This document shows, piece after piece, positions 12,301 to 53,894 of a DNA stretch of 64,000 bases (position 1 is the stretch's first letter; every line of letters begins with the position of its first letter). The stretch lies in assembly GCA_033964015.1 (NCBI GenBank), contig CM066913.1, forward strand, positions 29,972,790 through 30,036,789, written 5' to 3'. This DNA is from Scolanthus callimorphus. Taxonomy: Eukaryota; Cnidaria; Anthozoa; Actiniaria; Edwardsiidae. The notes under the pieces were generated by a model. It was given only the letters and a program-made list of their open reading frames with translations, made no database searches and was not told where the DNA came from. The translations under genes were made by a program, and so were the position numbers.

Positions 12301-15300
12301 CTCGACGTCTAACCCTCGACACTCGACCCTCGACCAAAACCTACACTCGTTCCCACTCTGTACGTTCATTAAAATGACGTGATTGGTAATCTGCTTCAAT
12401 GTTTGTTTTCCCTGGGATATGGGTAGCTGTAATCCAGGTGTTATTTTCTATGCACCAATGCCAAATTGTTTTAGCAATATTATTGCAAAGAATTGAATGG
12501 GTACCTCCCATACTATTGATATAAGTTACTGCAGTAGTGTTATCACACTGAACAAGAACATGTTTGTTTTGAAATGTTGATGCAAAGCACTGCAATCCAT
12601 ATTGAATAGCCAATAGCTCAAGAGCATTAATATTTCCTTTGTTTTGGTTAATTTCTGATTGTAAAAATTGTCCTTGGGCTTTATCTTTATTGCAAACTGC
12701 TCCCCAACCTAGCATAGAAGCATTTGTGTTAAAAACTTTGTTAGGATTTTTACGGGATATCAGCCCATATGCAGGATCAATGTTGTTTAACCACCATAAT
12801 AGATCATATCTCATTTCATCAGTAACAAGCATAACAGTATCATAATTGCCTCTAGCTGCTGAAAGAGCTTGAATTTTTTCTATCTCTAAAGATCTATAAT
12901 ATAATGGGCCAAATTGAACCGCTGGAAAACTAGAAACCATTTTTCCAATTACTTGGGCAATTTTTCTAATAGTAAGCTCAGAATTTTCAATTGTTTCTTG
13001 AAACAATGCTTTTAGCTTGCATTTCTTGTCAGCAGTCAAAGATACAGTCATCTGAACTGAATCCAAGACAAAGCCAAGAACTTTGACTTTATGACTGGGT
13101 ATACTCAGATTTTTCTGGATGAATTAAAAAACCTAAACTGCTAAACAGCTGTTTACATGCTTCAATAGAATTTGATGCATCATTAAAGTCCTGACTTTGA
13201 ATATAAGTATCGTCAATGTAACCAGATACTGTGTACCCAGATGTCCTCAACTTTGCATAACAAGGTTTTAATAATTTTGTAAAAAGTCGAGGACAAGACG
13301 AAAGCCCGTTTGGAAAACAAGTATATTCATACAATTTGTCTTTCCAACAGAAACATATAACATTCTGTGGTTACTAGTTTCATAATGGAATGCAGAGTAT
13401 CCATTTTAAACTTGTTATACTCAACACATTTATTTAGACGTTTAAGATTGAGAATCATTCGAAATGATCCATCTGGTTTTGGCCTGAGAAATACATTCGA
13501 GAGATATTGGGAAAATTGAGAAATTGGAGTTTCCTCTAAAACTCCTTTAGATAGCAATTTTGCTATTTCCTGGTCCATAATAACCATTTCCCAGTCAGAA
13601 AAATACATAGGTTTAGGAATTGAACGTTGTTGAGGAAACTCGTTTCCTTCAAATGTTATATGGCAACCATTGACCATGTCTAAAATAACATTATCGCTTG
13701 TAAGTTTCTCCCATGCTGGAAGAAAATTCTGGATTCTACCAGCCACTCGTATTTCATTTACCTCTGAACTAGAGATTATTTCTTGGTTGTGGTTTCTGTT
13801 GAGGTTGACGTGTTCGACCTGCCCTTGTGTTGAAAGGAATGGTGATACTGGCTTGATCCTCCTAAAAAAGGCCTTGTATAGGGCGTAGGACGATCTCTGC
13901 CATAAGCTGATCCTCTGCCATATGTTTATCCTCTGAAGGCTCCTCCAGCTCTAGCACGACCACGAAAATTACCACGAAAACTTGAGCCTCGTCGCCTCGA
14001 GTCTAGTAGTTTATGTGTCACTTTATTGTCATCCGTTATATCCTTGATTTGTTTTGTAACATTTTCTCCAAACAACAAATCAGTAAAGGGAACCTTTTGC
14101 GCACACAAATGATTATAATCTCTTGAAATTTGTGGCTTCAATGCATCTCTGCGCCTTTGTACTAATTCCCAATTGGCGGCTCCTAGGCAAACTAGAGCGT
14201 CTTCTTTAACTTTCCAAATCTCATTGAACAATTCCTGAGTTTGCTCTTTTTCTGTTGAAGCTTGAAGAATTAAGTCTGCAATCAAGGCAACATTTGTAGT
14301 TCCTTTTACTAAATCAGTTTGAACGCGTTGCATTTTGACATCATTCGTTCTGGCCTCAGCCGAGATACGATCCCAAATTACCTGATTTACAGTAATTTTT
14401 GAAAGGCCTGGACAATTCTCCGGACGATGAATTTTATCCAAGTGATTTTTCTCGAAGTCGTCTTCGGGTTTTTGCCGCATTAAGGCAGATACGTTTGTTG
14501 CTAGGTTTTCATTGATTTTCTGACCAGTTTTGTCCTTATTGCTAGATCTTTTCTCAAGGCTAGCCAAGAGACTCTTGACTGAGTCATTTTGCTCTTGTTC
14601 CACGACATTTTCATTCGTTTTTGGTTGTTCAGTACAAGGTTCTTCGACCTCATGTTCATGTTCGTCGTCCATCGATGAGCCTTCTTCTGGCTGGTATGAA
14701 AACTGTTGTAAGTTCTCATTTAGTATATTCATATTCTCTCCGAGAATACTAAAGTTCTTTGTCAAAGACTCGTTCAGAACCTCAAAATTTGCTTTTAAGG
14801 ATTCTGTAATACACTTGACTGCGTCAAGTGGTTGTTCGCTGTCACTAGAATTAGGTTTCTTCTTTTTCTTTCCGCTCGTAGAAGTTGAGCTTCGCTCAGT
14901 TTCCACAGATAAAGTCTCCTCTTTATCACTCATTTCTAATTGTAGTATTGGTTAAAACAAAATGTTTGATTAGTAAAGTCATGAATCGAACGCTTTAGAA
15001 TAAAGCGACGACTTACCAGCGACCGGCTTCGACGAGAGTGAACGCAAAATGTGACCGGTGGTGGCGTAACGCAATATCTCATGTGATCTCCAGTCACGTG
15101 ACTGTGAGGTAGAATACAAGTGACACATTGGATATTCTTGAAACCATTGTATAACTAGTACATGGCCTCATGGTCATGGACATATATATTCATGCCTAGT
15201 GTACCATATTATTGAGTCAACTCAGTCTATGCATGGCATTTGAATTTATTAGGATAGCTATTTTACTTGTTTGTTATTATGTCACAATCACAATTTTCAT

Positions 15301-27921: not shown

Positions 27922-30900
27922 TTAATCTAATAATAGACTTATTTTTTCCCATTTCTTTAAATCTATGTCGATATTATTATTTTCCCTCGCAATTAAGAGC
28001 TCCATGCTATGCACCCATTTTAATTCCTTCTTGAAAACTTTCAAGTCCGGTTTCATTCTTTTGTACCTACAAAAATAAATTACTTTTTTTGCAAGCAATA
28101 TCAGGAAATTCAGAGTTAAAAAAACACCTTGTTGTTCAATGATCCCGAAAATAATTTTTTCATAGGATAAATTATTAAACACAAAATCATCACAATTAAA
28201 CCAAACCGTTAACTCTGACCAGAAGGCCTGAACATATGGACAATCAAAAAAGAGGTGTCTAACTGTTTCAGGTTGTTCCTCACAAAACGTACAACAATTG
28301 CTGGAAACTAATTTCATTTTAAATAAACGATCATTTGTAAATAAATGCGCGTCAATATTTTGTACTGAAACTCTCTCATTTTAGTGCTCATCGTGATTAT
28401 GCGAGGAAGCAAAAAATGTTTTCCCAGCTGCGTCCATTGTGCGACAAGTCACGTTCAAATTTTTGAATTGATACTGGGGGTTTAGAAATCCTATTAATGA
28501 ATATGGTAGTGATTACTTTCGCACTAATTTTATCTAAATTGCTAAGCTTCAAACAAATATCATCAACTTGAAACTGATCGGGCGTAACCACATATCTACA
28601 AAGAGGGTAGACACTTTCGACTTTCATAGCTTTTCTCCATGTTTCCGGCACTGCATCGTAAATTCGTATGCAGTTAAAATAATCTAAATCAGTAAGTTCA
28701 GGAGCCTTCTGCTTCATCTTCTCGTAAGAGAGTAGAGAGCCATATTGGTCTACTAAATCCGCTACTTTAAGAATATTCTGCCTATGAAGTCTATGGTCCA
28801 ATATACTATTTTTACCAACACGAATATACTTATTATTCCAGAGATTCTCATTGTAAAAATCGTTCGCGCTCTTTAGATCTTTATTTCTAAAAAGCTCAGA
28901 CCACACGGATAACGATTCTCTATAGAATAACGAGATATGCGGAAGCTGCAATAAGTCAACATCGAAATTAGAATACAGAAGAAGCGAAGCCCCCACACTA
29001 TGTAAGTATTGATCCAAAATATATTTCCATGTCGTTTCCTCGCCAAACAAATATTTAACTAGACAAATGATCCTTTGTGCTTTGACCATAGACTCTAGAT
29101 GGGGCATCCTGAGCCCCCCAAATTTGTAATCTCTGATGAGGGTCAAGCGCTTAATTTTATCTTTCTTTCCATTCCAAACAAAATCGTATAGCAATTTGTT
29201 TACATCATTAATAACCTGTGCTGATGCCCAGATTTGAGCCGTTTTATAGACGACTTTTGGCAGAACAAAGGATTTTAAAACTTGGATACGCCCCAATAAA
29301 GTAAGATTCCTCCATTTCCAGAAATTGAGTTTTTTTTTAGCGAATGTAGAATCAAGTCGTAATTTAATTCCTTTCTCTTTCTCTCATCGTAGGAATAATA
29401 AATTCCCAGAATTTTGATGGGTTCATCGACTTTCTTGATGTCTAGCTCCTCACTAATCGCCTTTCTCGCTCGGGAACTACCTAACCACATAGCTTCGGTC
29501 TTGTCGTTATTAACGTTTAAACCAGAGACCGACGCAAATTCGAATAATGCCTTCTTGAGCTCAAGATATGATCGCTTATTCTGCAGAAAAACAGTGAGAT
29601 CGTCAGCAAATATACTAAGTTTCACTTCTTTTTTACCAATCAGTAGACCCTTTACGTTGTTATTTTCTCTTATCGAAATAGCTAACACCTCTAGAGCAAT
29701 AATGAAAAGAAAAGCGGACAGAGGATCGCCTTGGCGGACGCCTTTTGTGACAGCAAAAAAAACCCGTCTGATGACCATTGTTCATCACAGAACTACTAAT
29801 ATTAGTATACATGGTTACTATCCAACGGACAAAAGAGTCGCCAAAATTAAATTGTTTCAGAGCTCTTACAAGGAAATTTCGATTAAGAGAATCAAACGCT
29901 TTCTCGAAATCGATTGTTACAAGAAGACCAGGAATTTCACAGAGATTTGCATAATCGATTACGTCATCGATATTTCGAGCAGCATCCGAAATTGTTCGGC
30001 CTTTTACGTACGCATTCTGGTTGTGGTGTATAATCGAAGGTAGTATTGGTTCCAGTCTCAAAGCCAAAGCCTTAGACGCCATTTTTGCATCAACATTAAT
30101 AAGTGAGATGGGTCTCCAATTATTTAGATATCTTCTATCCTTATCTTTTTTTTTCAAGTAATTTAATTATCGCCTGACGCTGTGAAATCGATAATTCGCC
30201 ATGAATGTAAGAATAATTCAATGCATCGACTAAGTCCTGCCCTAGCTCAGACCAAAAAGCCAAATAAAATTCAGCAGTCAAACCATCGTTACCTGGTGAT
30301 TTATTAAGCTTGAATTTTTTTAATGCATTATAACACTCGCCAATTGTAAGATGGCCCTCGCAGCTTTCTTTTTGCTTAGTAGATATTTTTGGAATATTTA
30401 ACTTTTCCATAAATTCGTTAATAGATGGATGGTCAATGTTAATGCTATCAAAAGACAGATCTTTTTCAGTATATAGCTCAGAAAAGAAATATTCTAACTC
30501 ACTGGAAATTCCTTTGGGATCAAATACCTGTTTTCCATTCCGATCGATCACTTTTCTGACACAAGATTGCTTAGTCCTTTTTTTCTCGAGACTCAGGAAA
30601 TATTTATTGTTCTTTTCGCCTTTCTCGTACCATTCAGCACGGGATCGTATAATTGATCCTTGAACAACATATTCATATAACGATTCGTATTCAAATTTAG
30701 ATGATTCAAGATTAGCAATGTTTATATCTGATGCGTCATCAGCACACTGCATTTCTGCTTCTTTCAAACGTGACTCAGCTTCCTGCAACCTATCTCTTCT
30801 CTGTCTAGCTTTCATTTTGCTAAATTTCATTGATACTTGTCTTATTCTATACTTCACCAAGTCCCATAGGACACGCTGATCATTAACTTCACAAAACTCA

Positions 30901-31494
30901 TTCTTCCAAACAGGAATGCTAGTCTTTATAAGAGTAACGTAGTCGGGATCATCAGTTAAACTTGAGTTAAACTTCCAGTAAGAAGGACCTCTGTTCAGCT
31001 CAGGAAAACTTTTTGCTTGGAGAACGATGCATGAATGGTCCGATTTAATTGACGGTGTTATGTCTGTTTTTGAAATTTCTTCCTGAAAAGTACTATCAAT
31101 CAACCAAAAATCAAGTCGTCTCTGAACAAAAGGCTTCCTTTGTCTCCACGTGAAAGCCTTTTTATCCGGATTTCTAATCCTCCAAATATCGATTAGGTCA
31201 AAAGTTAGCATCAAATCCTTGACTGCTTTAGTGCCCTTTTTAGGCTTAGAGTTACTACTGCTGTCTAAATCTGATGATAAAAAAAACATTAAAATCTCCG
31301 CCAAAAATTAACTTAGCCTCTGTGTTTTCCACTACAGCAGACACTTCCTCCTTCAAATTTTGAAAAAATGTTAATTGCTCGACTTCTTTGTCAGGTGCAT
31401 AAACATTAACAATCACAAAGAGCACATCTTGAAAGACTGCGTGCAAAATGATGTAACGACCGTTCTCATCATATTTTACAGATCTTACATCCAA
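27922..31494 (-). pseudogene. LINE ORF2: endonuclease, RT and C-terminal zinc finger
   Basis: Frames in order: 31494-31255 (endonuclease, IVNVYAPDKE, FGGDFNV), 31304-30141 (ITPSIKSDHSC, end of endonuclease; RRDRLQEAESRL; EKGEKNNKYFLSLEKKR; LNKSPGNDGLTAEFY, RT motif 0-1), 30157-29660 (PISLINVDAKMASKALA, TIDFEKAFDSLN with motif A Asp), 29778-29275 (TKGVRQGDPLSAFLF, LSIFADDLTVFL with the FADD box), 29296-28397 (thumb and C-terminal region) and 28317-27922 (CCTFCEEQPETVRHLFFDC, the zinc-ribbon end of L1-like ORF2). At least four frameshifts separate them. The start of the endonuclease (the LN and QET motifs) is missing before 31494. Confidence 0.85.
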
Positions 31495-31755
31495 GTCAAC
31501 ACCAGGCTTTGTTAAAATAAAAAAAAACTCAACACATAAACAGAGAAAAATAAGTCAAGAACTTTACCATAATTTTCTTATCTTATAAAAAAAAAAAATT
31601 TTCAGCAGACTGGAGGGGTGAGATGAGCGAATGGAGAAAAAAAAATGTAAGCTTATATCTAATCCAACTGTGAAAGGCCTTCAAAAATTATAAGTTACAT
31701 AATTCAATCTATTTATTACTATATAGGCGAAAAAGATCGATCAAGAAAAACATAC

Positions 31756-32586
31756 TCAAGAATCAATTGAAACGGTGCTATTTGTCGATGTTATCTGTTC
31801 GGTTGGATCTTTATAGAGTACACCGTCTATATAAAGTTTATCGAATACTACCTTTGCGGCTTTGCCTTCGAGCTTGGCAGCTTTCATCTTTGCGACGAGC
31901 CGCTTCCTAACCTGTAGAACTTCGGGTGGAAAATCTTCTGATAGCGAAAGAGTAGACCCCTTCAACTTGTTTGCTTGTCTCAACACAAACTCCTTCTCTT
32001 TGAAGAAACTAAACTTAGCGATGATTTGTCGCGGGTTTCCATCCGTGCTCTTGCTACCAGTGCGATGCACTCGCTCAAGGCTCAACTCATCCACATCTTT
32101 CGCCGCCATCATGAGATTGGTCTCCAAGAAATCCCTAAGAATATTCTCTGTATCCCTCGGAGTTTCTTTCACTTTTTCAGGAATCATATAAAAGCGTAGG
32201 TTGTTACGTCTACTGTGACCCTCTAATTTGATACCCCTGGTAGTTTCACGCTGTAGGTCGTCTCGTAGATTTTGAAGAGTTGACTCTTGGTCGTGAAGCT
32301 GCTTCTTTAACGTATCTATTTCATGATAAGCAAACTCCAGACTGCCTTCTAGCTCCCTGTTCCTTTCCTCTAGTGCATCTTGTCTTTCCTTCAAAGCTCC
32401 TATCTCGTCAAGCCTTTGCAAAGCTATATCGAGTTTCCTGTTAATTTCACTCATCTGCTCGGCACATTGGCAATGGCCGCATGACTCGCTATTTGCGAGC
32501 GAGTCATCATTTGTATCCGGCGTATCGGTTTGAGAGCCTCTACTGCGTTTCCTTTTCTTTTTATCGTTTTCTTGCTTTTCAGCCAT
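31756..32586 (-). CDS. LINE ORF1 protein (coiled coil, RRM, C-terminal domain)
   Basis: The frame is intact from an ATG at 32586 (MAEKQEN; an earlier in-frame ATG at 32634 is less likely because the leader precedes it), giving 276 residues. It has a basic Lys/Arg start, a long heptad-type coiled coil (residues about 45-130, rich in Glu/Leu/Gln), then HSRRNNLRFYMIPE, the RNA-binding RRM of L1-type ORF1 proteins, RVHRTG and IIAKFSFFKEKE, and the C-terminal domain LSEDFPPEVLQVRKRL. It trimerises and binds LINE RNA in known relatives. Confidence 0.85.
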   Translation of the reverse strand: MAEKQENDKKKRKRSRGSQTDTPDTNDDSLANSESCGHCQCAEQMSEINRKLDIALQRLDEIGALKERQDALEERNRELEGSLEFAYHEIDTLKKQLHDQESTLQNLRDDLQRETTRGIKLEGHSRRNNLRFYMIPEKVKETPRDTENILRDFLETNLMMAAKDVDELSLERVHRTGSKSTDGNPRQIIAKFSFFKEKEFVLRQANKLKGSTLSLSEDFPPEVLQVRKRLVAKMKAAKLEGKAAKVVFDKLYIDGVLYKDPTEQITSTNSTVSIDS

Positions 32587-33269
32587 TAAAACAAAGATAC
32601 TTTGAACTGAAAAAATATAATCAAAGCCTCTCACATCATGGAAAAGCCGGAGCTCTCGTTAGCCACGTCCGTACTCCATGACAGTCTGCAGCCCCCTGCA
32701 TGCGCTTTCACGATTTCTTTCCTCGGTAAATGATTTTCCAACACTTTAGTAGTTCATCGTATTTACAATCTGACCTTCCGCAAAGTTTAATACATTACTA
32801 TACAATATAGTGCCGAAGGAAGAGCCCCAAATAATGAGTTTTCGGAGCACTATTAAAATTCAATTGAAGCCGAGCAGAATCAGCCTTCTAATTTGGCCAA
32901 AGTTGACGGCATTTTTATTACTGCGTTTCTGTTCCGACGAATTTTCTGTAACTTAGCTCGATTTGAGATTACTTCAACTGGAATCGATTCCTGGAGTTTG
33001 AGCCAAAAAAACCGGCAATTTTTTTTTTCTAGTACGACCTGAATATGAAATTAGGGCCTCACAAAAATTTAGATTGTGACTTCTAAAAATGTTTCCAAGA
33101 AGATCGGTTATTAAGAACTTATTTATACATCACTAAGGTAGGATTTGAAAAAAGAATTATAACAATAGAGGAAAAGACACAAAAGTTATAGAGTTTGGCG
33201 ACGCAGATTTGCGCTCTAGACACAGTTGGGTGCATTTTGAATTTCGAATGAGTCACCTTAAACTTTAAA

Positions 33270-35515: not shown

Positions 35516-36403
35516 ATCCTTGAATTAGTGCCTGCTGGACACTTATCCACATAAAACATTCCTAAGCATATTATTTAATCTATCGGAAGCAACTAATTCC
35601 TAAAAGTACTAAATAAAAAAGTTCTCACCATTGCATAAGTACCAATCTGTCTAAAACTAATGCTTCCATTGCAATTGTTGGGCTGATAGAGGCAATCTGT
35701 GTGCCTCCCGAGCTACCAAACAGAAACATGGTAAATCTATTTTAAAGTGGTAAATCTAGTGAAAGACTGAATGTTATTCTTCCTTGATTTTATGTTTTCA
35801 TTATTTTTATTGCTTTTACAAAGATAATGGGACTCCAGTATGTTTCGTTACTAAAATGCATAATAATATCCATAGCTATATGCTTTCATTTTGTAAATTA
35901 GACTGGAAAAGAAGGTATGTGTTAAAGTTTCATCAGACGTATTTCAGTGACAAAGCAGCAACCAGAGATCGCTCTTGGACAGGCCATCCATGGCCTATGG
36001 CAAAAATAATATTAACATAATGACTGTATAGTTCAGTCATCTAATGAATTGTTTTCGGGTCAAGTGGGAACTAATTGCAAAAGAATTTTTTTTCACTGCC
36101 AGATGATAGGTAATAGTCAGTTAAGTAACACACTAAAAATTCCCAAAAATTCGCGAAAGGGAAATTGTTAAAATAAAGCATTTTTGTAATTCCGGACTTG
36201 ACCATAGGGTACGCCGTTCTGTGATTTACTTCTTTTCTTTAATTGCACAACCAATTCCCAAGAATAACATACAACACCTAAAATGTATGCAAACTAAGTA
36301 ATAGGACATTGGATGGTTTCTCTATGAAGTTTATACATTTTTTCGCCTTTACTATTGTAACTGGATCATTTGTGTATACCAGGTTAAGCCTGGTGTATGT
36401 ATT

Positions 36404-36960
36404 TTGGTGAAAATTTATCAGTTTCTTTACGTTTTTCCCGCTGGGGTACTTTTTAGCGATGAAGCCTACCAATTCGCGGGAAGCGAATCGAAACAGGACT
36501 TCGGTAAGCAGGCCCTAAACACGCTCATGAAGCATTTAAACCATGACATCTGCAAAGACAGTCCAGTCATAATCATGACTGGATATGAGCTTGAAATGAC
36601 AAAAATTATGAGAACAAATCCAGGCCTTTTCCGTCGGTTTATAGAAACATAAGGTTTGAGGATTATAATTCATATAGCATGGCCAACATCCTCAAAAAGG
36701 TGATAGCAAAAAAGAATTTCATCATATCTGAAAACATACTAGAGTCATTTCCTCAAAGCTTCGACAATATCAACCAAGCAACGCGAGCTCTTTACAACGC
36801 GGCACTTTGCAAAGGCGATAGAGCACCTCAATAGTCGCTTTGATCTGAGCAGCATTCGCTTGGAAGACACAATCTTCTTCACAAAGAAGGACTTCAACTA
36901 TGCTTTCCGATGTCAGAGAAGCAGTTACAGAAAGTATTCAAGGAAGGGCTTGGAGATTCC
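36404..36960 (+). pseudogene. AAA+ unit 2 (CbbX/SpoVK-type), frameshifted
   Basis: The frame to 36652 has AGVLFSDEAYQFAG (Walker B, with Ser before DEA), FGKQALNTLMKHLN, VIIMTGYELEM (sensor 1 region) and NPGLFRRF (arginine finger). These are the hallmarks of CbbX/SpoVK-like AAA+ ATPases. A one-base deletion after RRFIE brings a stop; in another frame FEDYNS...ILKKVIAKKNFIISENIL follows. No Walker A exon exists anywhere in the array, so ATP binding is impossible from this unit alone. Confidence 0.75.
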
Positions 36961-37668
36961 AGAGGGGATGTGTCACTATTCAACACACTTCCGTGGAGTG
37001 AGGAGGGGGATATTTTCTGGAACCACACACAACTGTTAACGCACCATAACTCCTTGAATTAGTGCCTGCTGGACACTTATCCACATAAAACATTCCTAAG
37101 CATATTATTTAATCTATCGGAAGCAACAAATTCCTATAAAGCAACTAATTCCTAAAATACGAAATAAAAGAGTTATTACCATTGCATAAGTAGCAATCTG
37201 TCTAAAACTAACGCTTCCATTGCCATTGTTGGGCTGATAGAGGCAATCTGTGTGCCCTCCCGGGCTACCAAACTGAAATATGGTAAATCTATTTTAAAGT
37301 GGTAAATCTAGTGAAAGACTGAATGTTATTCTTCCTTGATTTCATGTTTTCATTATTTTTATTGCTTTTACAAAGATAATGGGACTCCAGTATGTTTCGT
37401 TACTAAAATGCATAATAATATCCATAGCTATATGCTTTCATTTTGTAAATTAGACTGGAAAAGAAGATATGTGTTGAAGTTTCATCAGACGTATTTCAGT
37501 GACAAAGCAGCAACCAGAGATCGCTCTTGGACAGGCCATCCATGGCATATGGCAAAAATAATATTAACATAATGACTGTATAGTTCAGTCATCTAATGAA
37601 TTTTTTTTCGGGTCAAGTGGGAACTAATTGCAAAAGAAATTTTTTTCACTGCCAGATGATAGGTAATA

Positions 37669-37850
37669 GAGCAGATTTCGTATGACTGTGAAAAGTGCCG
37701 CGGTACGGCGCGGTACTGTCGAGGTGGCGGTACGAAACCTGGCCTGCTGTAAATGGAATGAAATCGCCAATGAAATCGCGTAGTCGCGGTACGGTCGCGG
37801 CGCGGAACAACTTTGTCACGGTACTTTTCACAGTCATACGAAATCTGCTC
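37669..37850. mobile_element. 182-bp MITE with TA target duplication
   Basis: The ends are GAGCAGATTTCGTATGACTG and its exact inverse, and the element is flanked by TA on both sides. The other units have the uninterrupted empty site (ggtaatagtcagttaagt), which proves insertion. TA duplication with perfect inverted ends suggests a Tc1/mariner-mobilised non-autonomous element. The interior is rich in cggtac. Confidence 0.9.
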
Positions 37851-38140
37851 TAGTCAGTTAAGTAACACACTAAAAATTCCCAAAAATTCGCGAAAGGGAA
37901 ATTGTTAAAATAAAGCATTTTTGTAATTCCGGACTTGACCATATGGTACGCCGTTCTGTGATTTACTTCTTTTCTTTAATTGCACAACCAATTCCCAAGA
38001 ATAACATACAACACCTAAAATGTATGCAAACTAAGTAATAGGACATTGGATGGTTTCTCTATGAAGTTTATACATTTTTTCGCCTTTACTATTGTAACTG
38101 GATCATTTGTGTATACCAGGTTAAGCCTGGTGTATGTATT

Positions 38141-38700
38141 TTGGTGAAAATTTATCAGTTTCTTTACGTTTTTCCCGCTGGGGTACTTTTTAGCGATGAA
38201 GCCTACCAATGCGCGGGAAGCGAATCGAAACAGGACTTCGGTAAGCAGGCCCTAAACACGCTCATGAAGCATTTAAACCATGACATCTGCAAAGACAGTC
38301 CAGTCATAATCATGACTGGATATGAGCTTGAAATGACAAGAATTATGAGAACAAATCCAGGCCTTTTCCGCCGGTTTATAGAAACATAAGGTTTGAGGAT
38401 TATAATTCATATAGCATGGCCAACATCCTCAAAAAGGTGATTGCAAAAAAGAATTTCATCATATCTGAAAACATACTAGAGTCATTTCCTCAAAGCTTCG
38501 ACAATATCAACCAAGCAACGCGAGCTCTTTACAACGCGGCACTTTGCAAAGGCGATAGAGCACCTCAATAGTCGCTTTGATCTGAGCAGCATTCGCTTGG
38601 AAGACACAATCTTCTTCACAAAGAAGGACTTCAACTATGCTTTCCGATGTCAGAGAAGCAGTTACAGAAAGTATTCAAGGAAGGGCTTGGAGATTCCAGA
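38141..38700 (+). pseudogene. AAA+ unit 3, same frameshift as unit 2
   Basis: Nearly identical to unit 2, with Phe to Cys (AYQCAG) and Lys to Arg changes. It carries the identical one-base deletion after RRFIE, so units 2 and 3 descend from one already broken copy. The downstream exon-like segment with DFNYAFRCQRSS is in another frame. This unit is preceded by the only copy with the 182-bp TA-flanked insertion. Confidence 0.75.
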
Positions 38701-39556
38701 GGGGATGTGTCACTATTCAACACACTTCCGTGGAGTGAGGAGGGGGATATTTTCTGGAACCACACACAACTGTTAACGCACCATAACTCCTTGAATTTGT
38801 GCCTGCTGGACACTTATCCACATAAAACATTCCTAAGCATATTATTTAATCTATCGGAAGCAACTAATTCCTATAAAGCAACTAATTCCTAAAATACTAA
38901 ATAAAAGAGTTATTACCATTGCATAAGTAGCAATCTGTCTAAAACTAACGCTTCCATTGCCATTGTTGGGCTGATAGAGGCAATCTGTGTGCCCTCCCGG
39001 GCTACCAAACAGAAACATGGTAAGTCTCTTTTAAAGTGGTGAATCTAGTGAAAGACTGAATGTTATTCTTCCTTGATTTTATGTTTTCATTATTTTTATG
39101 GCTTTTACAAAGATAATGGGACTCCCGTATGTTTCGTTACTAAAATGTATAATAATATCCATAGCTATATGCTTTCATTTTGTAAATTAGACTGGAAAAG
39201 GAGATTTGTGTTGAAGTTTCATCAGACGTATTGATGGTTATCTATGCTCTTTCAATTTCAGTGACAAAGCAGCGACCAGAGATCGCTCTTGGACAGGCCA
39301 TCCATGGCCTATGGCAAAAATAATATTAACATAATGACTGTATAGTTCAGTCATCTAATGAATTTTTTTTCGGGTCAAGAGGAAACTAAATGCAAAAGAA
39401 TTTTTTTTTCACTGCCAGATGATAGGTAATAGTCAGTTAAGTAACACACTAAAAATTCCCCAAAATTCGCGAAGGGAAAATTGTTAAAATAAAGCTGGAT
39501 CATTTGAAGTTTCATGGATCATTTGTGTATACCAGGTTAAGTCTGGTGTATGTATT

Positions 39557-39940
39557 TTGGTGATAATTTATCAGTTTCTTCACGTTTTTCCCGCTGGGGT
39601 ACTTTTCAGCGATGAGGCCTACCAATTCGCGGGAAGCGAATCGAAACAGGACTTCGGTAAGCAGGCCCTAAACACGCCCATGAAGCATTTAAACCATGAC
39701 ATCTGCAAAGACAGTCCAGTCACAATCATGACTGGATATGAGCTTGAAATGACAAAAATGATGAGAACAAATCCAGGCCTTTTCCGTCGGTTTAAAGAAC
39801 CATTGAGGTTTGAGGATTATAATTCATATAGCCTGGCCAACATCCTGAAAAAGACGATTGCAAAAAAGAATTTCATCATCTCTGAAAACATACTAGAGTC
39901 ATTTCCTCAAAACCCGAGCTACCAAACAGAAACATGGTAA
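39557..39940 (+). pseudogene. AAA+ unit 4, intact lid but deletion-fused end
   Basis: Here the frame passes through RRFKEPLRFEDYNSYSLANI without the deletion seen in units 2 and 3. It reads to ENILESFPQ and then jumps into PSYQTETW, because about 900 bp between the lid exon and the next unit's spacer have been deleted. It also differs by LNTPMKHL. This unit is closer to unit 5 than to 2 and 3. Confidence 0.75.
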
Positions 39941-40737
39941 GTCTCTTTTAAAGTGGTGAAACTAGTGAAAGACTGAATGTTATTCTTCCTTGATTTTATT
40001 TTTTCATTATTTTTATGGCTTTTACAAAGATAATGGGACTCCAGTATGTTTCGTTACTAAAATGTATAATAATATCCATAGCTATATGCTTTCATTTTGT
40101 AAATTAGACTGGAAAAGAAGATATGTGTTGAAGTTTCATCAGACGTATTTCAGTGACAAAGCAGCGACCAGAGATCGCTCTTGGACAGGCCATCCATGGC
40201 ATATGGCAAAAATAATATTAACATAATGACTGTATAGTCATCTAATGAATGTTTTTTCGGGTCAAGAGGGAACTAATTGCAAAAGAATATGTTTTAACTG
40301 CCAGATGATAGGTAATAGTCAGTTAAGTAACACACTAAAAATTCCCCAAAATTCGCGATGGCGAAACTGTTAAAATAAAGCATTTTGTAATTCCGGACTT
40401 TGACCACAGGGTACCCGCGTTGCGTGATTTACTTCTTTACTTTAATTGCAAAACAAATTCCCAAGAATAACATACAACACCTAAAAAGTATCCAAACTAG
40501 CCATACCCATATGTTCGTATAAAATAAAATTGATTCTATATCCGTGAAACTGAGTTTGGACTCTTCTTCGTGTGTTTCGTGTATGACGAGGAACGCCTGG
40601 TAGACTTGATGTCTTCGACTTTCCTTCGACCACTGTAAGTACATTGACATTGGATGGTTTCTGTATTAAGTTTATGCTTTTTTTCGCCTTTACTATTGTA
40701 ATTGGATCATTTGTGTATACCAGGTTAAGTCTGGAGT

Positions 40738-41400
40738 ATGTATTTTAGTGATAATTTATCAGTCTCTTCACGTTTTTTTCCCGCTGGGCTATTTTTCATC
40801 GATGTGGCCTACCAATTAGCGGGAAGCGAATCGAAACAGGACTTCGGTAAGCAGGCCCTAAACACGCTCATGAAGCATTTAAACCATGACATCTGCAAAG
40901 ACAGTCCAATCATTATCATGGCTGGATATGAGCTTGAAATGACAAAAATGATGAGAACAAATCCTGGCCTTTTCCGTCGGTTTATAGAACTATTAAGGTT
41001 TGAGGATTATAATTCATATAGCCTGGCCAACATCCTCAAAAAGGTGATTGCAAAAAAGAATTTCATCATCTCTGAAAACATACTAGAGTCATTTCCTCAA
41101 AGCTTCGAGAATATCAACCAAGCAACGCGAGCTCTTTACAACGCGGCACTTTGCAAAGGCGATAGAGCACCTCAATAGTCGCTTGGATCTGAGCAGCATT
41201 CGCTTGGAAGACACAATCTTCTTCACAAAGAAGGACTTCGACTACGCTTTTCGATGTCAGAGAAGCAGTTACAGAAAGTGTTCAAGGAAGGGCTTGGAAA
41301 TTCTAGAGTGGATGGGGGTCAATTCGCCTTATTTTTTTTCATTCAAATACTCAGCTATTTGCCTTTGGAGATTCCAGAGGGGATGTGTCACTATTCAACA
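40738..41400 (+). pseudogene. AAA+ unit 5, most complete lid region
   Basis: This is the longest frame (146 codons to 41178). It covers GLFFIDVAYQLAGSESKQDF (Walker B Asp kept but DE changed to DV), sensor 1, the arginine finger and the whole lid to ATRALYNAALCKGDRAPQ. A second frame, 41183-41416, continues with FTKKDFDYAFRCQRSSYRK. The replaced Walker B glutamate would abolish hydrolysis. An extra 60-bp segment (about 41320-41370) interrupts the repeat tail. Confidence 0.75.
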
Positions 41401-46108: not shown

Positions 46109-46114
46109 CAAGTG

Positions 46115-46412
46115 TATGGTGGCCGAGGCGTGCCACAATGTTTTTGCTGGCTCTTCTGCTGCCTTATTTATTTTTCTTCAGGACTGTTTTCTTTTGATTT
46201 CAAAATTGTTTATATATATAGATTTTTTTATTTTCAATGTTTTCTTGTTTATTATTTTACTTTATTTTTATTTATTTTTCATTCCATTTTAATTTTTTTT
46301 CGAAACTACACTAAGATAAAAATTAATGAATTAAAAACAAACAAACAAAACGAAATAAAAAACGCCAGCAGCCTAGACGTGCGACACAGGTATCCCAAAC
46401 CACAGGTATCCC
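46115..46412. repeat. Left terminal inverted repeat of the IS3EU-like element
   Basis: The outer 22 bases match the right end with one mismatch. A long T-rich centre (46190-46310) and the inner motif cagcctagacgtgcgacaca, followed by two copies of cacaggtatccca (46386-46398 and 46402-46414), make up the arm. The + strand kinase leader starts immediately inside it. Confidence 0.75.
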
Positions 46413-46518
46413 AGTGAATAGACCATCTCGCACACGTGCTTTCTTGCTTCAGTTGTCTTTGCTTGCGCAGCGCTACCTACTACATCTTGGAAGAGAAAGA
46501 GAAGCTAGACCAAAGACA

Positions 46519-47875
46519 ATGGCGGATAAACGTGCAAAGAATGAGAAATGGGATGGCTTCAAGAAGCGCCAAGGAGCGAAGCGGACGTCTAAAGAGAAGA
46601 AAGTCGTAGATTACATTACTGTCCAGCGTATGACCCCAAACGTCAAAGGAGCATGCCAAAAGTACGGCCGGATAGGGCCTTTGGCAATCGTCCCTTTTCC
46701 GTATGACAGCTTCACACTGGATAACATAAAGATGGCGTGCAAGGAGCACTTCAACATAGGAGAGTACATGGCATGCGATGTACTGGCGGGTGAGCGAGGC
46801 CCTTCTTTTACATCAATCGAGCAGATAAAAAACACAAACTTGATTCATGTCAGGTTTTATTTCGAGGAGCGCGAGGCTGCCGAGGACGATAAGCTCCTAA
46901 AAACCACACCTGGCTTTGGTCCTGTAAATAGTCAAGCAAGGGATCAACATGCCGCCGGTAGCAGTAAGAATGACGAGAGTCCGCCTAAGAAGCAGCGTGG
47001 AAGAGCACATGTTTTGTCAGTTTCAGAGTGCGATGGCAATACGACACCTCGTAAAAGGTTAGCCAAAGAGTACCCAAAGTCTGTCCCTCTCTGAAGGTTG
47101 CTTGGAATGGGGAAACTTGTTCCGGCAAGTAGAGATAACTTAATGGAGTGTATGATTGAGGAGTTTTCTGTAGAGGAACAAAAATGGTTTCCCCCGTCCT
47201 GCAAATATTTCTGTCTGCCAGAAACCATTCGCGAGTGGAGCATTCCGGGATGCTTTTGAAGCCCGTGTGGTTTCGGGCGTAGTTGTTGAACCTGGACGTT
47301 CCAAAAAATATGTCCTGAAGAAGTTTAAAGAAAGTGAGGTAGAAGACATCCAGAGATTGTTTAATTTAAATGATCTAGCACAGAAGATGGTACAGATGCA
47401 TGGGATAGCCAAACACTATGCCCTTATACTTGAGAAAGAAGCAAAGAGCCTGGAAAACTATGGCGACTCTTTTAGATGTACCAGTTGCTACCTGGTGTCT
47501 CACGAAGGCTCTATGTAAACATTTGAGGAATATGTGGAAGGCGAGTTTATTAAGTACATCAATAACGATGGAGCCATCACAAGTGGCAGTTTCCTTTCAG
47601 AGAAGGCTCAAGCATTCAGCCATTTTACTTATGTAAAATCAAAGGAAACATTAATGGTGTTGGACATTCAGGGATCTGGCTTCCAACTCTACGACCTAGA
47701 AATAGCAACCAAAACAGAGGGAGATGACGACGAGATAGTGAACGATGGGCTTTTCTGCTGTGGCAATCTGCACAATGCTGCAATTAGTACCTTTCTTTCT
47801 GAGCATGTTTGCAATAGGTTTTGTCAACTTCTGGGCCTCCCATGGAACAAAAAATCAGCTGATGAAGGGAAGTAG
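46519..47875 (+). pseudogene. Alpha-kinase (MHCK/eEF2K family) passenger gene
   Basis: From the ATG at 46519 an intact frame runs 191 codons to 47094: a basic start (MADKRAKNEKWDGFKKRQ), a folded-looking region (VDYITVQRMTP, GRIGPLAIVPFPYDSFT), and a Lys/Pro-rich linker. After frameshifts, 47215-47517 reads CQKPFASGAFRDAFEA and KKYVLKKFKES (the N-lobe with the ATP-site Lys region), and 47516-47875 reads EEYVEGEFIKYINNDG, AFSHFTYVKS, LMVLDIQGSGFQLYDLEI (catalytic loop, DxQG) and HVCNRFCQLLGL (zinc-binding H-C-C end). Alpha-kinases phosphorylate Ser/Thr in helices. At least two indels (near 47200 and 47515) break it. It is single-exon, unlike the transposase. Confidence 0.8.
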
Positions 47876-48213
47876 TCATAGCAAGCCAAGTGTTGCTGTA
47901 CAGAGCATTTGCAGTTTGCATCAGTTATACCTGGGCAGTGTTGGTGATGAATTGGTTTCAAAACATTTCTGAACTCATTATTGATGAAATGACATTCTTT
48001 GTTACTATTGACAGAATTTCTGAATTGATGCAGCCAGGCACAATTCTGAAATTATTTAAAATGTTACTGGCATGAAGCTGGTCTGTTTTTTGATTACACA
48101 AAATCAGCATGATTGGATTTATTTTATTATTGAAGGCCATGACTTGTTAATCATATTATTGATAATATTATGATGAAATCATGAAAGGGTTTTGGGATCA
48201 TCTCCTACATTTC

Positions 48214-48334
48214 TGGGTCCGGTTCCTCAAAGCAGGGTTGGCACTAACCCTGGTTAATTACCATGGCTACAATTGATTTTGCCTTGAAATAACCCAGGGT
48301 TAAAGTTAATTCACTTTATAGGAACCGGACCCCA
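48214..48334. repeat. MITE with tgggtccggttcct ends
   Basis: Ends tgggtccggttcctcaaag and the inverse ending ggaaccggacccca, with an inner pair gggttggcactaaccctggt / aacccagggttaaagtt. It is about 121 bp and lies between the kinase and transposase genes. Confidence 0.8.
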
Positions 48335-48619
48335 GAACTGTAAAGCTTGACATAGCAAGTGTACTGTAAAATAGCAGCATTTGCATATAATTAATTTGTT
48401 TTTCATTGTTCATATATATCACAAATCATGTATATAGTTAAAATGCAGTAATCTGTTGGTACTCAATTTTCTGACAATCTCTATGCCTGACATAACACCC
48501 TGATTTGGGTTTAAGAGTAAAAAAAAATTTACCCTAAAATATTTATTTTTACCACTTCCTTTTTGGTATCTTTTAGGGATGAAACTCAAATCCCCGACCA
48601 AACAATATGCCCCCCCCCC

Positions 48620-48715
48620 CCTGTTGCAGCCTCTTTTATGTGATCTACATTAGGAATGATTGCTTCAGAGCTTGCTCAAGAAGCTGGCTTTATAAAGTGG
48701 TTCTGTAGGTGTTTC
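48620..48715 (-). pseudogene. Diverged duplicate of the transposase C-terminus
   Basis: On the - strand about 30 codons (FIKPAS, then SSEAIIPNVDHIKEAAT) resemble the end of exon 4 of the transposase (FLNPEF...CEAVIPNTDDIKPKEAA) including order and spacing, with one stop. This is a second, more decayed copy of the 3' end of the gene inside the same element. It abuts a C13 run. Confidence 0.6.
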
Positions 48716-48763
48716 TGAGGTGCCAGGTGAAATTTCCAGGTGAAATTGCTTTATTGGGGTGAT

Positions 48764-49023
48764 TACCACTGTATGCATTGCTACGCGACCTCAAAAATCA
48801 CTGTTGCGATGGGCGATTGGCGATTTTTAGCCGTCAATCAAAACTAAAACGTTGGATTCGGCTACTTCGGTGGGTCGACATTAATTGTAAGCTATCCTTT
48901 GGCTTTCTGTCCTAGAATTATGAACTTTCTGGATCAAGAAAATTTACATTACAATTCCTTTGCTGAGAATCGCCAATCGCAACCGTGAATTTTGAGGTCG
49001 CGTAGCAATGTATACAGTGGTAA
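48764..49023. repeat. MITE with ttaccactgtat ends, about 260 bp
   Basis: TTACCACTGTATGCATTGCT on the left pairs with the inverse of ...agcaatgtatacagtggtaa on the right, continuing through cgcgacctcaaaa and gcgattggcgatt. The arms are about 75 bp. The loop has no coding. Confidence 0.85.
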
Positions 49024-49346
49024 ATGGCACCGTGTAAATAATATTTTACATAGACATTACTCCAATAATAATTAATAATAAAAATACATAGATTTCTTCA
49101 ATAATAATTTGTTTTCGCAGATGATAAATGGAATGGTCCTTTGTGGCTTTTTTGTTGATAAAAAAAATGTGGCTGCCTGCACTGTTATCAGGCCAAAAGT
49201 GAAAAATTGAGTTTGGAATATATTCAAACTTGTCATGATACATGGCCTACCTTCCCCACCACCAAATGACAATATTATGTTTTTTTTCAAAAAGGGGAAT
49301 ACATGCCTTATGGATTTTTTTAAAGAAAAACAGAAATGCTTGATGA

Positions 49347-49494
49347 AGGGGTGTAGCCAGGAATTTTGGTTGGGGGGGGGGGGGCAGATAGTGAAAACAT
49401 AGGAAGGAAATTTTCAAATTTCCTCCAGCAAATACAGTAAATGTATGGGAAAATCTCCTGAAAAGGGGGGCTGCGGCCCCCTGGCTACACCCCT
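49347..49494. repeat. Foldback element with ggggtgtagccagg ends and G12 run
   Basis: aggggtgtagccagg at 49347 and cctggctacacccct ending at 49494 are inverted. A poly-G run near 49372-49384 and a ggggggctgcggccccc stem lie inside. It is structurally like the element at 811-918. Confidence 0.75.
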
Positions 49495-50974
49495 GCTATA
49501 ACGTAGGAGTTTAAGCTACTGTATGTTCGCCTTAAGATATAAATAAGCATTAGCAGCTTCTTTGGGTTTTATGTCATCTGTATTGGGAATGACGGCTTCA
49601 CAGCGTGCTCTAAATTCTGGATTTAAAAAGTCATCAGTTCCTTCTAATATGTTAGAAAGCTCACTAACTTCCTCTAAATCCTCTTCTCTGATGGGATGTC
49701 CACACTTTTCACCCCCATATTGTTCTGGGAAGTTATAGATGTGATCAGGCACACCAGTTGGAAGTTCTTTTTTTACTTGCTTTCTTGCTCGGTGAGTATT
49801 CCACACAGTCTCTCTAAAAATGTCAAGCTCTTTTTGTAGAACAGGAATGTATACAAAGGACAGGAGATCTCTGAAAATGAAAAAAAGGAGCACACTTATA
49901 TATTTTCACAACCACTATCAGAGCAGCCAACCCACACAGCTCACTAGAAAACTGTAAATGTTTAACAGGGCTTGAAATAAAAATTTTTCTCAAGTTGCCG
50001 CTGGTATTCAAAAGTAGTCGCCAAACCATTATCTTTGGTCACCAAAAAAAAATTAGGACGCCAAAAAGATGGGTTGTTTTTTTCTAGTGTTTGGGTTCCC
50101 TTATTAAAGTTGCATGCGAGGAAGGTTTTTAATTTTTGCATAAATAGTCTATAAAATCAGCTAAGGGCCTGTGTTTTGTTATTAATCAGGGGTCCTTATT
50201 GCGTTTCGTTCATGGTTCGAATTTTACGACGAAAATCGGTGATAAGTGCGAAGGAGAGCCCGTGATCCTGATGCTGCTATTATTATAATGAGCCCACAAT
50301 ACTCTGTTGGGAAAAGCGGCAAAATTCAAAATGGCAAACGTGAATGATCAGATAAGCAGAATTTATTGCAATGTTATCGATTTTTTTTATTGGGAAAACA
50401 AGTCAGGATTGTCACACTAAATGAGAATTCTTACAAGTCGTCGCCAGATGGCGCCTAAGCTCCTATTTTCAGTCGCCAAGACCAGAATCTTGGTCGCATT
50501 GGCGACTCCTGAGTCGCAATTTCAAGCCCTGTGTTATGGAAAAATGTAGTAAATATATAAGAATTATATGAAGTAAGTTTGTAATATTGAGACAAGGCTC
50601 AAAATGTTGAGTTTTGAAGTTTGAGTTCACAGCCATAAACTTTAAAATAACTATCAAAAGGATTGTCCCTTTCATAGTCTCCATCTTCTAAGAGTTTCCT
50701 TAGCTGAGCATTGAAGAATGTCTCTAGTCTTTCCAAGAGATCTTTCCAGAAACGCTCAATTTTGTTCTCTGTAGATGGTCCATACAATACAGAGTCTGCT
50801 GCCTCTTCATCATCTTTAAACTTGCTTAATAGGTATGCATGCATGGTAGCCATGTCAACAGTTTCTGTCCCCTTATCCAGTCGCAGACGGGATGGCATAA
50901 CTGTGTCCAAACAATAATTTCATCAATTAAATCAAGATCAAGATCATCCCCAAAAGAGAACATAATCTGTAAAT

Positions 50975-51473
50975 TTACAGCCAAAGACGCTCAAGCGTCC
51001 CCTCTAGAGTGCAATAATGAGTTGATTCTTGGAATATTGCATCCATTATTCGATTCAATAATGCATTCAGCTTGGGAAAACATCTCTCAATTTGAACTCA
51101 GATTTCGGCTAGATTATCTTCCTGACACCACGCTCCAACACTCTTAAGTCACTGGCTTTATGCATCTTGGAATATCCCTGATAATACTGATCAACAATTT
51201 CTTCTCTAAATGAACGAGAGAGAGATTTACCAGCCTCGTAAAGTCTACAAGGCCTGCCAGATTGGAAACTAAACTTGCAAACAAACGGCTCCCTGTGGGT
51301 TATTCCATATGGAATCGTCTATTGTCCAATAAAAAAGCGAAAACCCAGTTCAAATCGAAAGACCTTTTCCCAAGCCGAATGCAATTATTGAATCGAATAA
51401 TGGATCCAATATTCCAAGAATCAACTCATTATTGCGCTCTAGCTGGGTACGCTTGAGCATCTTTGACTGTAAC
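50975..51473. repeat. MITE with about 105-bp arms in a transposase intron
   Basis: TTACAGCCAAAGACGCTCAA pairs with the inverse of 51450-51473, and the match runs through gcaataatgagttgattctt and attattcgattcaataat. It lies in the intron between exons 2 and 3. Between the arms, on the - strand, about 40 codons read like a helix-turn-helix (51250-51130, see separate entry). Confidence 0.75.
51130..51255 (-). pseudogene. Helix-turn-helix-like fragment inside a MITE
   Basis: On the - strand an open segment reads GRPCRLYEAGKSLSREFREE and then IVDQYYQGYSKMHKAS, resembling the first helices of paired/Tc1-type DNA-binding domains (R..IV..Y..G.S). It has no start and ends after about 45 codons. It may be a captured exon piece or a transposase remnant of the MITE's parent. 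Confidence 0.35.
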
Positions 51474-51514
51474 TCCTAAAAGATATGACAATCATCCCAG
51501 ACCAAAAAGTATGG

Positions 51515-51708
51515 TACATGTAGTAGAGGGGGGGGGGGGGGGGGTCAAATACAATTAACACCCTTCTGTGGTGGGAGTATGGATACGGTATTTGCTGCTT
51601 TTGCATGATTCCCCACCAGATCAAATTGGGAGTAGCTACATTCTTCTTACCTGCTCATGGGCTAATAGATCTAGTTCAATATTGTGTGTTTCCAGAAATT
51701 ATCCATAC

Positions 51709-51739
<31 letters not shown>

Positions 51740-51870
51740 ACGGAAGGGATTGGAAATTCCGGAGGGGTGGGGGGTCAATTTACCTGATATTTTCCATACA
51801 AATACTGTATTTTTCTTCAGAAATTCCAGAGGGGTGGGGGGTATGGATATTTTTTGGAACTACACATTAT
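51515..51870. repeat. G and C homopolymer runs and a short direct repeat
   Basis: A G run of about 18 (51527-51544) and a C run of about 28 (51711-51738) flank a region where gaaattccrgaggggtgggg occurs twice (51765 and 51820), about 55 bp apart. The same phrase in weaker form (gagattccagaggggatgtg) ends each AAA+ array unit. Open frames across it are low-complexity artefacts. Confidence 0.6.
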
Positions 51871-53419
51871 GTTAAAATTCTAACTTGAGTACCATGGTCA
51901 GTAGGGGAATAAAGGGAAATTTTTTATTCATATTTAATGCTCATGCGATTTCTTTTGTTTTATTCCCCTCAGCCTCAGCCTCAAGTAAGAATTTTAAGAT
52001 ATTTAAATTGGTCTACAGTAAACACCCACATATAAGAACAGCCCATTTCAGGGTCAGCCTGTATATATAGAACTTCCATACGTATACTGTAAGGTATCTA
52101 AAATGACAAATTTCCGTCTGACGTTTTTAATCCATGTGTTCTTATATGCAGGTGTTTACTGTATTGTTTTTCCATAGCAGTCATCTGTCTTTGTCCTGGG
52201 ACTTTCAGTTGTGAGCATACTCACCTCTAGTTTCAAATAAGTATTCCAGATAAAAACGACCTACAATTTTAGGGTTATTGTTGGATGTCCAGATCCGAAG
52301 AAATTGTATTCAACCACTATAAGTATCTTGTCCTCCATATATGTGAAGTGGAAATGTGGACTTTTGATAACCACATAACTTATCATGTCCATCAAGAGAC
52401 AATGTCCAGTCAGAGCCCTTCAAAGGAAAAATTAATTTGCATACTCAGTACATATTAAGTAGTTTTTTGAACAATCACCATTTTCAGGTCTTTCTGTAGG
52501 TACCGGAGACTATTGTATTCTCTGTTAGCTTTGTTCTTTGTGTTACTTGGAGTCCTTTGTCTCGGGTCCTTTGTCTCTATTGAATTACGTAAACTGTGCT
52601 CCGGTCAGCTCTGGTACCTACAGAACGAACCCCATTTTCTCTCAACAGCTCTGTCTAATCTTGAAAGCATTAATTCAGGGAAAGTTCATTCATTACTACG
52701 AAGGGGGGAGACAGGCATGAGGTTATTGATGAAAGCAAATGAGGATGTTGATGAAAGCAAACTTGTGGTTATGAAACTATCTTATCTGTTAAAAAATCAT
52801 ACAAGAACACAGAAGGGACTTTTGATGAGAATAACAACTGACTTTATCAACACCCACCTGGAACAGATAAGTCAGTTGGGTGTTGTGTGAAAATATACAG
52901 TGGTAACTCCCCCCCCCCCCCCTACCTATGTCCTCCTATGCCGGGTAGCCACAAAAAAAAGCAGCTTTACCTTTGACTGGAAAGCATGTTTTTGGACGCC
53001 GATTTCGCTTGCCGACACGTCTGTCTTGAAGACCTGTAGGATCCACTTCCGTCATTACAGCATAAACCAAACCTCTTGGTACTTTAAGGCCGTGTATTTC
53101 TCTAATTTTTTTATGTAATGCGCGATAACCTAACAATTTTCCTGGTCCCTTCGTCTCTTCTTGCACAGCACGTTCTACCTCGTCCAGTTGAGTTTCATAA
53201 TCTGTGTACTTGAGTTGAAAATAACTCAGTCGACGGCAAAGAGTCCTAAGACTCCAGGAATACATTGGATACTTCCTGGAGACAAAATCTAGTATTTCCT
53301 TTCTTTGAAGGTTCTGTTTGACATACTTTTGCAAATCATTCCTGAGCATCTCATCATTCTCCCAGTTTCGAACACCGGCCATGATGAACTCTCCTTCGCG
53401 GCCAGGCCTGCCTCCTACC

Positions 53420-53745
53420 TGTAATCCGGGATGCCTGTGGTGGTGGCACATCTAGGCTGCCCTAGATTTTCGTTTTTCGTTTCTTATTTTTATTTGTCTG
53501 GCACGCCTAGGCTCTTCTGAATTTTTTTTATGCTTTTTGTTTAAAAAATAAATAAACAAATAAAAAACAAACTAGAATAAAAATGAACACCAAGAAAAAA
53601 AAGAGAAACGGAAAAAATTTAAAATAATATAAATAAAAAAGTCTAATATATATATATATATAAAGAAATGAAATAATAATGTTGAACTGCGTAAAAATAT
53701 TCAGTACAAAATGTGTTATCAAAGTGGCACGCCTCGACCACCATA
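53420..53745. repeat. Right terminal inverted repeat of the IS3EU-like element
   Basis: Mirror of the left arm: accacaggcatcccggatta and cagcctagatgtgccacca in inverse near 53420-53462, an A-rich centre including a (TA)n run at 53647-53662, and the outer end ccaccata at 53738-53745. The transposase leader starts inside it; the frame upstream of its likely ATG translates the repeat itself, which is why I prefer the ATG at 53382. Confidence 0.75.
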
Positions 53746-53894
53746 CAAGTGACATCTGGTTTGATGTGGACTGCTTCGCTGAAATAGCTGGGGAGCACAA
53801 TGGACACAGTGGCTACGTCCTGAACGTCCACAAGACGGTGGGACCAGATGAGCCACAAATCTCGAACTAAGTGAAATCGTGGATAAGAGCAGGC

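Follow-up and report, generated by a model that had tools for sequence, protein, structure and literature searches.

An inactivated IS3EU-type transposon copy with an alpha-kinase gene in the cnidarian Scolanthus callimorphus

IS3EU elements have been defined by TA..TA ends and, usually, 6-bp target-site duplications, according to the accessible part of one account (PMC10045372). The closest described systems come from fungi, mostly rusts: in the portion available of a 2025 paper, every TET+ IS3EU family carries an alpha-kinase gene oriented against that of the transposase, with a TET/JBP gene lying between the two, and TAYGG..CCRTA ends with 6-bp duplications are given for the rust families (PMC12730594). 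Styx, an element of Zymoseptoria, shares an IS3EU-related DDE transposase with the element described here, and its authors suggest that an IS3EU ancestor coded for two proteins; of the four ORFs of Styx, one is the transposase, one has DUF3577 and two have DNA-binding motifs (GATA, CCHC), with no alpha-kinase named in the available excerpts (PMC10853768). The alpha-kinase family is described as highly expanded in rusts, again in a partial text (PMC4469406).

Here, we analyzed a stretch of 64,000 nt of S. callimorphus DNA (the window), which contains a 7.6-kb element with two oppositely oriented genes, a transposase on the (−) strand and an alpha-kinase on the (+) strand. With high confidence, we read it as an inactivated copy of an IS3EU-type lineage that pairs a spliced DDE transposase with an alpha-kinase lacking introns and bearing a beta-grasp-like domain at its N terminus, the kinase being a co-moving accessory enzyme; the starting points of this reading (the ends, the duplication, both genes, their decay and a gene pair that recurs elsewhere) were observed. 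The features are as follows, by position in the window.

46109-46114, unstranded: left target-site duplication CAAGTG (matches 53746-53751)
46115-46136, (+): left terminal inverted repeat (inverted-repeat search and end search of the window)
46519-47091, (+): N-terminal part of the kinase, beta-grasp-like domain plus linker, 191 codons to an in-frame TGA (reading frame; predicted fold of residues 1-121)
47092-47094, (+): in-frame stop TGA of the kinase gene (frame reading)
47174-47515, (+): alpha-kinase domain, first half, in an open frame that differs from that of the N-terminal part (PF02816, E 1.6e-6, profile 1-81 of 185)
47516-47518, (+): in-frame stop TAA within the kinase domain (frame reading)
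47519-47875, (+): second half of the alpha-kinase domain to the stop, with DIQG and HxCNxxC motifs (PF02816, E 5.3e-26, profile 92-185 of 185)
48763-49023, unstranded: short palindromic stretch in the spacer between the genes, 56-nt arms 93% complementary (inverted-repeat search)
49516-49868, (−): transposase exon 4, including the stop codon (PF24764 at E 0.0085, which does not reach the cut-off; splice site predicted)
50652-50900, (−): transposase exon 3, with the second D (LRLDKGTE) and the E (STENKIERFW) (PF24764, E 2.1e-6; splice sites inferred)
50975-51472, unstranded: palindromic foldback-like stretch (TTACAG...CTGTAA) in a transposase intron, arms of 64, 46 and 28 nt (inverted-repeat search)
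52225-52417, (−): transposase exon 2, with the first D (SLDGHDK) and an in-frame TGA at 52312-52310 (frame reading; splice sites inferred)
52971-53382, (−): transposase exon 1, start codon at 53382 (frame reading; covered by relatives; splice site inferred)
53724-53745, (−): right terminal inverted repeat (inverted-repeat search and end search of the window)
53746-53751, unstranded: right target-site duplication CAAGTG (read from the sequence)

The 22-bp inverted ends (TATGG...CCATA) differ at one position, and the perfect duplication of CAAGTG flanks both; the preliminary description had noted matching ends and this duplication, and both were borne out. When up to three mismatches were allowed, these two sites were the only ones in the 64-kb window (shuffles, n = 100, mean 0.00), and the ends had no exact match in the prokaryotic and viral contig collections. 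Our assignment to IS3EU is made on the ends, the size of the duplication and the features of the DDE transposase. Specifically, the termini are TA..TA and agree with the TAYGG..CCRTA of the rust families, the duplication measures 6 bp, and the transposase is IS3/IS481-like in its features, with PF24764 ("integrase core") above the cut-off in exon 3 and a D63D39E arrangement.

In its ends, its 6-bp duplication and its opposite gene orientations, the element resembles the fungal IS3EU elements as the accessible text of PMC12730594 presents them. The fungal TET+ elements, as described there, add the TET/JBP gene, whereas none was recognized in the cnidarian element: among 10 further ORFs checked, PRIMA1 (E 0.076) was the sole family at E ≤ 0.1 and no family reached 0.001, a check that decayed or short exons could escape. 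The preliminary description was not aware of alpha-kinases as cargo of transposons. The view that none is known in that role is not supported, and for fungi the surprise is answered because PMC12730594, in its available part, describes IS3EU elements with an alpha-kinase. Among 5.39 million papers of the open-access literature searched, this was the sole one to name both "alpha-kinase" and "IS3EU," and no report of an alpha-kinase with IS3EU in cnidarians was found in that literature, which mostly leaves subscription journals outside its scope. The architecture was already known, and what is new is, apparently, a cnidarian member.

The transposase gene was read as four inferred exons (53382-52971, 52417-52225, 50900-50652 and 49868-49516), with splice sites placed by eye; the most obvious GT-AG junction joining exon 1 to exon 2 does not keep the frame, and this first splice junction is doubtful. 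The D, D and E are D146, D210 and E250, invariant in 68 aligned relatives drawn from the 120 matches listed. A spliced gene with these residues had been claimed and stands, but the IS3-type helix-turn-helix claimed alongside was not recovered with significance in Pfam (HTH_32, E 0.045, 14.7 bits versus a cut-off of 33.7). Coding capacity for its own movement, a trait of autonomous IS3EU copies, is lacking, and the window copy is non-autonomous because of the in-frame stop in exon 2.

The kinase gene spans 46519-47875 and starts ~400 bp from the outer end, and PF02816 was found in both halves of the domain (28.7 and 92.3 bits; curated cut-off, 21.3), which bears out the alpha-kinase proposed near the left end. 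By frame reading, it appears intronless. Its frame changes at about 47188-47200, beside the two stops; a read-through keeps the active-site Lys, the DxQG motif and the HxCxxxC zinc residues, all present in relatives as well. The window copy of the kinase makes no full protein and shows no function. Thus, of the "complete" transposon put forward at the outset, the outline holds and the coding capacity does not, both genes being broken, a decay that the preliminary description did not mention. The element probably inserted as one unit and decayed later, and it could be moved at most by the transposase of another copy. The palindromic stretches in the intron and in the inter-gene spacer look like nested insertions.

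The kinase query, i.e., the window kinase read with X at each lesion, matched 127 proteins at E ≤ 0.001. Among the 120 matches listed, 87 covered at least 90% of the query at 30–57% identity, and we therefore regard the two-domain protein as the unit. Most listed relatives carry no source name; the named sources among the matches listed are Paramuricea, Oculina, Actinostola, Dendronephthya, Exaiptasia and Stylophora, joined by Acropora in a second search, all of them anthozoans. We aligned 85 of the 120 (the 35 omitted being 29 with lower query coverage and 6 full-length proteins left out for no special reason), and these share an alpha-kinase domain at the C terminus, preceded by an N-terminal domain of ~90 residues. 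All 85 conserve the Lys, Asp, Gln and Gly of the active site; each of the four zinc-binding residues is conserved in between 78 and 84 of them, with at most four of the misses being gaps; their roles are presumably those assigned within the alpha-kinase family.

The structural model of one relative (P0002; mean pLDDT, 85.7) matches the TRPM7 and MHCK alpha-kinases (Foldseek, 1ia9, E 6.3e-18), while the N-terminal domain (residues 1-121) is predicted, with weak scores, to adopt a ubiquitin-like beta-grasp fold. The element kinase has the fold (by the P0002 model), the active-site residues and the zinc-binding residues in common with TRPM7 ChaK, MHCK A and eEF2K. Where these three are fused to a channel, WD40 or Sel1 repeats, the element kinase carries its N-terminal beta-grasp-like domain. 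Motifs resembling nuclear localization signals (NLS) occur in the linkers of 23/85 kinases (shuffles, mean 8.3, largest 17, kinship among the sequences being ignored) and as basic motifs within the first 45 residues of 59/85, a count without shuffle control; they may hint weakly at nuclear action of the kinase. Public annotation of cnidarians labels four relatives (P0013, P0088, P0097 and P0099) as TRPM6 or eEF2K, which is probably a misnaming.

The transposase query matched 443 proteins. Named sources among the 120 listed include two molluscs (Lottia and Patella) and Ciona besides cnidarians. In the two match lists, which come from searches unequal in reach, the transposase is more widely spread than the kinase, and a kinase need not stand beside every such transposase. 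The best named relatives of both proteins among the matches listed are cnidarian. Four pairs of kinase and transposase genes from beyond the window look linked, as judged from neighboring gene numbers and equal contig sizes rather than from DNA read from one inverted repeat to the other: in Exaiptasia, the kinase LOC110237033 and the transposase LOC110237035, each with a contig of 374,143 bp; EukProt gene13471 (kinase) and gene13470 (transposase) in one genome; and two ENA pairs, P0082 (kinase) with P0188 (transposase), each on a contig of 17,739 bp, and P0257 (kinase) with P0149 (transposase), each on a contig of 64,267 bp. The Dendronephthya kinase P0255 lies on the same 4.4-Mb contig as P0127 and P0183, which carries little weight for adjacency. 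Contig sizes of at least 10 kb common to both match lists numbered four, against 0.008 expected when sizes were jittered by about 10% (171 kinase and 113 transposase rows stating a size; the Dendronephthya contig is the fourth of the four). That equal size means one and the same contig for each pair is strongly, if indirectly, indicated.

Kinase relatives thus appear linked with transposase relatives elsewhere, and the kinase does not appear to be a one-off passenger. The earlier proposal that it moved inside the element and was present at insertion is supported by the intact ends, the perfect duplication and the linked relatives. "Passenger" itself is probably the wrong word, because the kinase recurs with the transposase lineage across large divergence.

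We built trees of both genes for six pairs (the window, Exaiptasia, EukProt, the two ENA contigs and Dendronephthya P0255/P0127), a comparison that the preliminary description had suggested. The trees are partly congruent: the window and EukProt genes cluster in both (support 99 and 100), and the placement of the 17,739- and 64,267-bp contigs conflicts (support 68 to 88 for the kinase and 96 to 100 for the transposase). Identities of the two genes, in comparisons that are not independent, gave a Spearman correlation of 0.45 (p 0.10) over the six pairs; it was 0.59 (p 0.005) when Dendronephthya was counted with two rows and 0.28 (p 0.43) when it was left out. Long co-inheritance of kinase and transposase is supported by these sequence comparisons for the nearest pair (window/EukProt), and some exchange of kinases between elements may also have occurred.

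How else could the kinase have come to lie here? A host alpha-kinase gene or retrocopy may have entered this single element and been carried by chance, as an apparently intronless kinase beside a spliced transposase would allow, and the full reading covers this one element. We nevertheless consider such a capture very improbable: elsewhere, this two-domain kinase seems linked with the same lineage of transposases, and PMC12730594, in what is available of it, reports alpha-kinases from IS3EU elements of fungi. Still less credible to us is a separate mobile element that holds the kinase and is nested in, or recurrently inserted beside, the transposase gene. Other palindromic stretches inside the element do resemble nested insertions, and the linkage evidence gives no element bounds; yet of the longest 25 among 91 inverted pairs, none encloses just the kinase, the kinase starts close to the outer end (the ~400 bp given above), and the fungal IS3EU elements, in the accessible text of PMC12730594, are described with both genes inside.

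For the kinase to be simple cargo that plays no part in transposition seems to us unlikely rather than far-fetched. The window copy is decayed, and among the window and five other pairs the kinase diverges faster than the transposase (31–43% versus 45–66% identity). Set against this are the invariant active site of all 85 aligned relatives and the retention of the whole two-domain protein in the 87 listed relatives, which together argue for lasting selection on the enzyme, whatever its purpose.

On our preferred reading of an IS3EU-type lineage with a co-moving accessory kinase, the transposase of intact relatives would move the element by its 22-bp ends and leave 6-bp duplications, since membership in the IS3EU family implies that a DDE transposase acts on the ends to move the element. 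The kinase would favor the element by phosphorylating either the transposase or a factor of the host; plausible substrates are the transposase and host silencing or repair proteins, and a nuclear site of action is our guess. The invariance of the active-site residues over deep divergence argues for an enzyme in use. More tentatively, and with more doubt than conviction, we suggest that the beta-grasp plus alpha-kinase protein might be a core second gene of IS3EU in animals and fungi, a regulatory kinase kept to control transposition or to disarm host silencing.

These findings suggest that the alpha-kinase of IS3EU, reported for fungi only in the open-access literature searched, also accompanies the transposase in cnidarians, which points to a lasting function. 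Lineage-specific alpha-kinase expansions could be explicable as transposon copies (compare the rust expansion in the available text of PMC4469406 and the cnidarian relatives labeled TRPM6 or eEF2K). Transposon genes may account for some of the coral gene models that databases call "alpha-kinase."

Elsewhere in the window, closely similar reading frames occur four times on the (+) strand at 36305-41178 (VLFSDEAYQFAGSESKQDFGKQALNT...); they resemble AAA-type ATPases by eye, and the one copy tested had no Pfam match at 0.001. Retroelement pieces lie on the (−) strand at 10685-14951; within them, 12344-13123 gave a match to an RNase H-like family (PF13456, E 2.3e-6). A further stretch on the (−) strand (27922-32658) looks by eye like a non-LTR retroelement and contains a reverse transcriptase (PF00078, E 3.3e-18) in 29663-30166.
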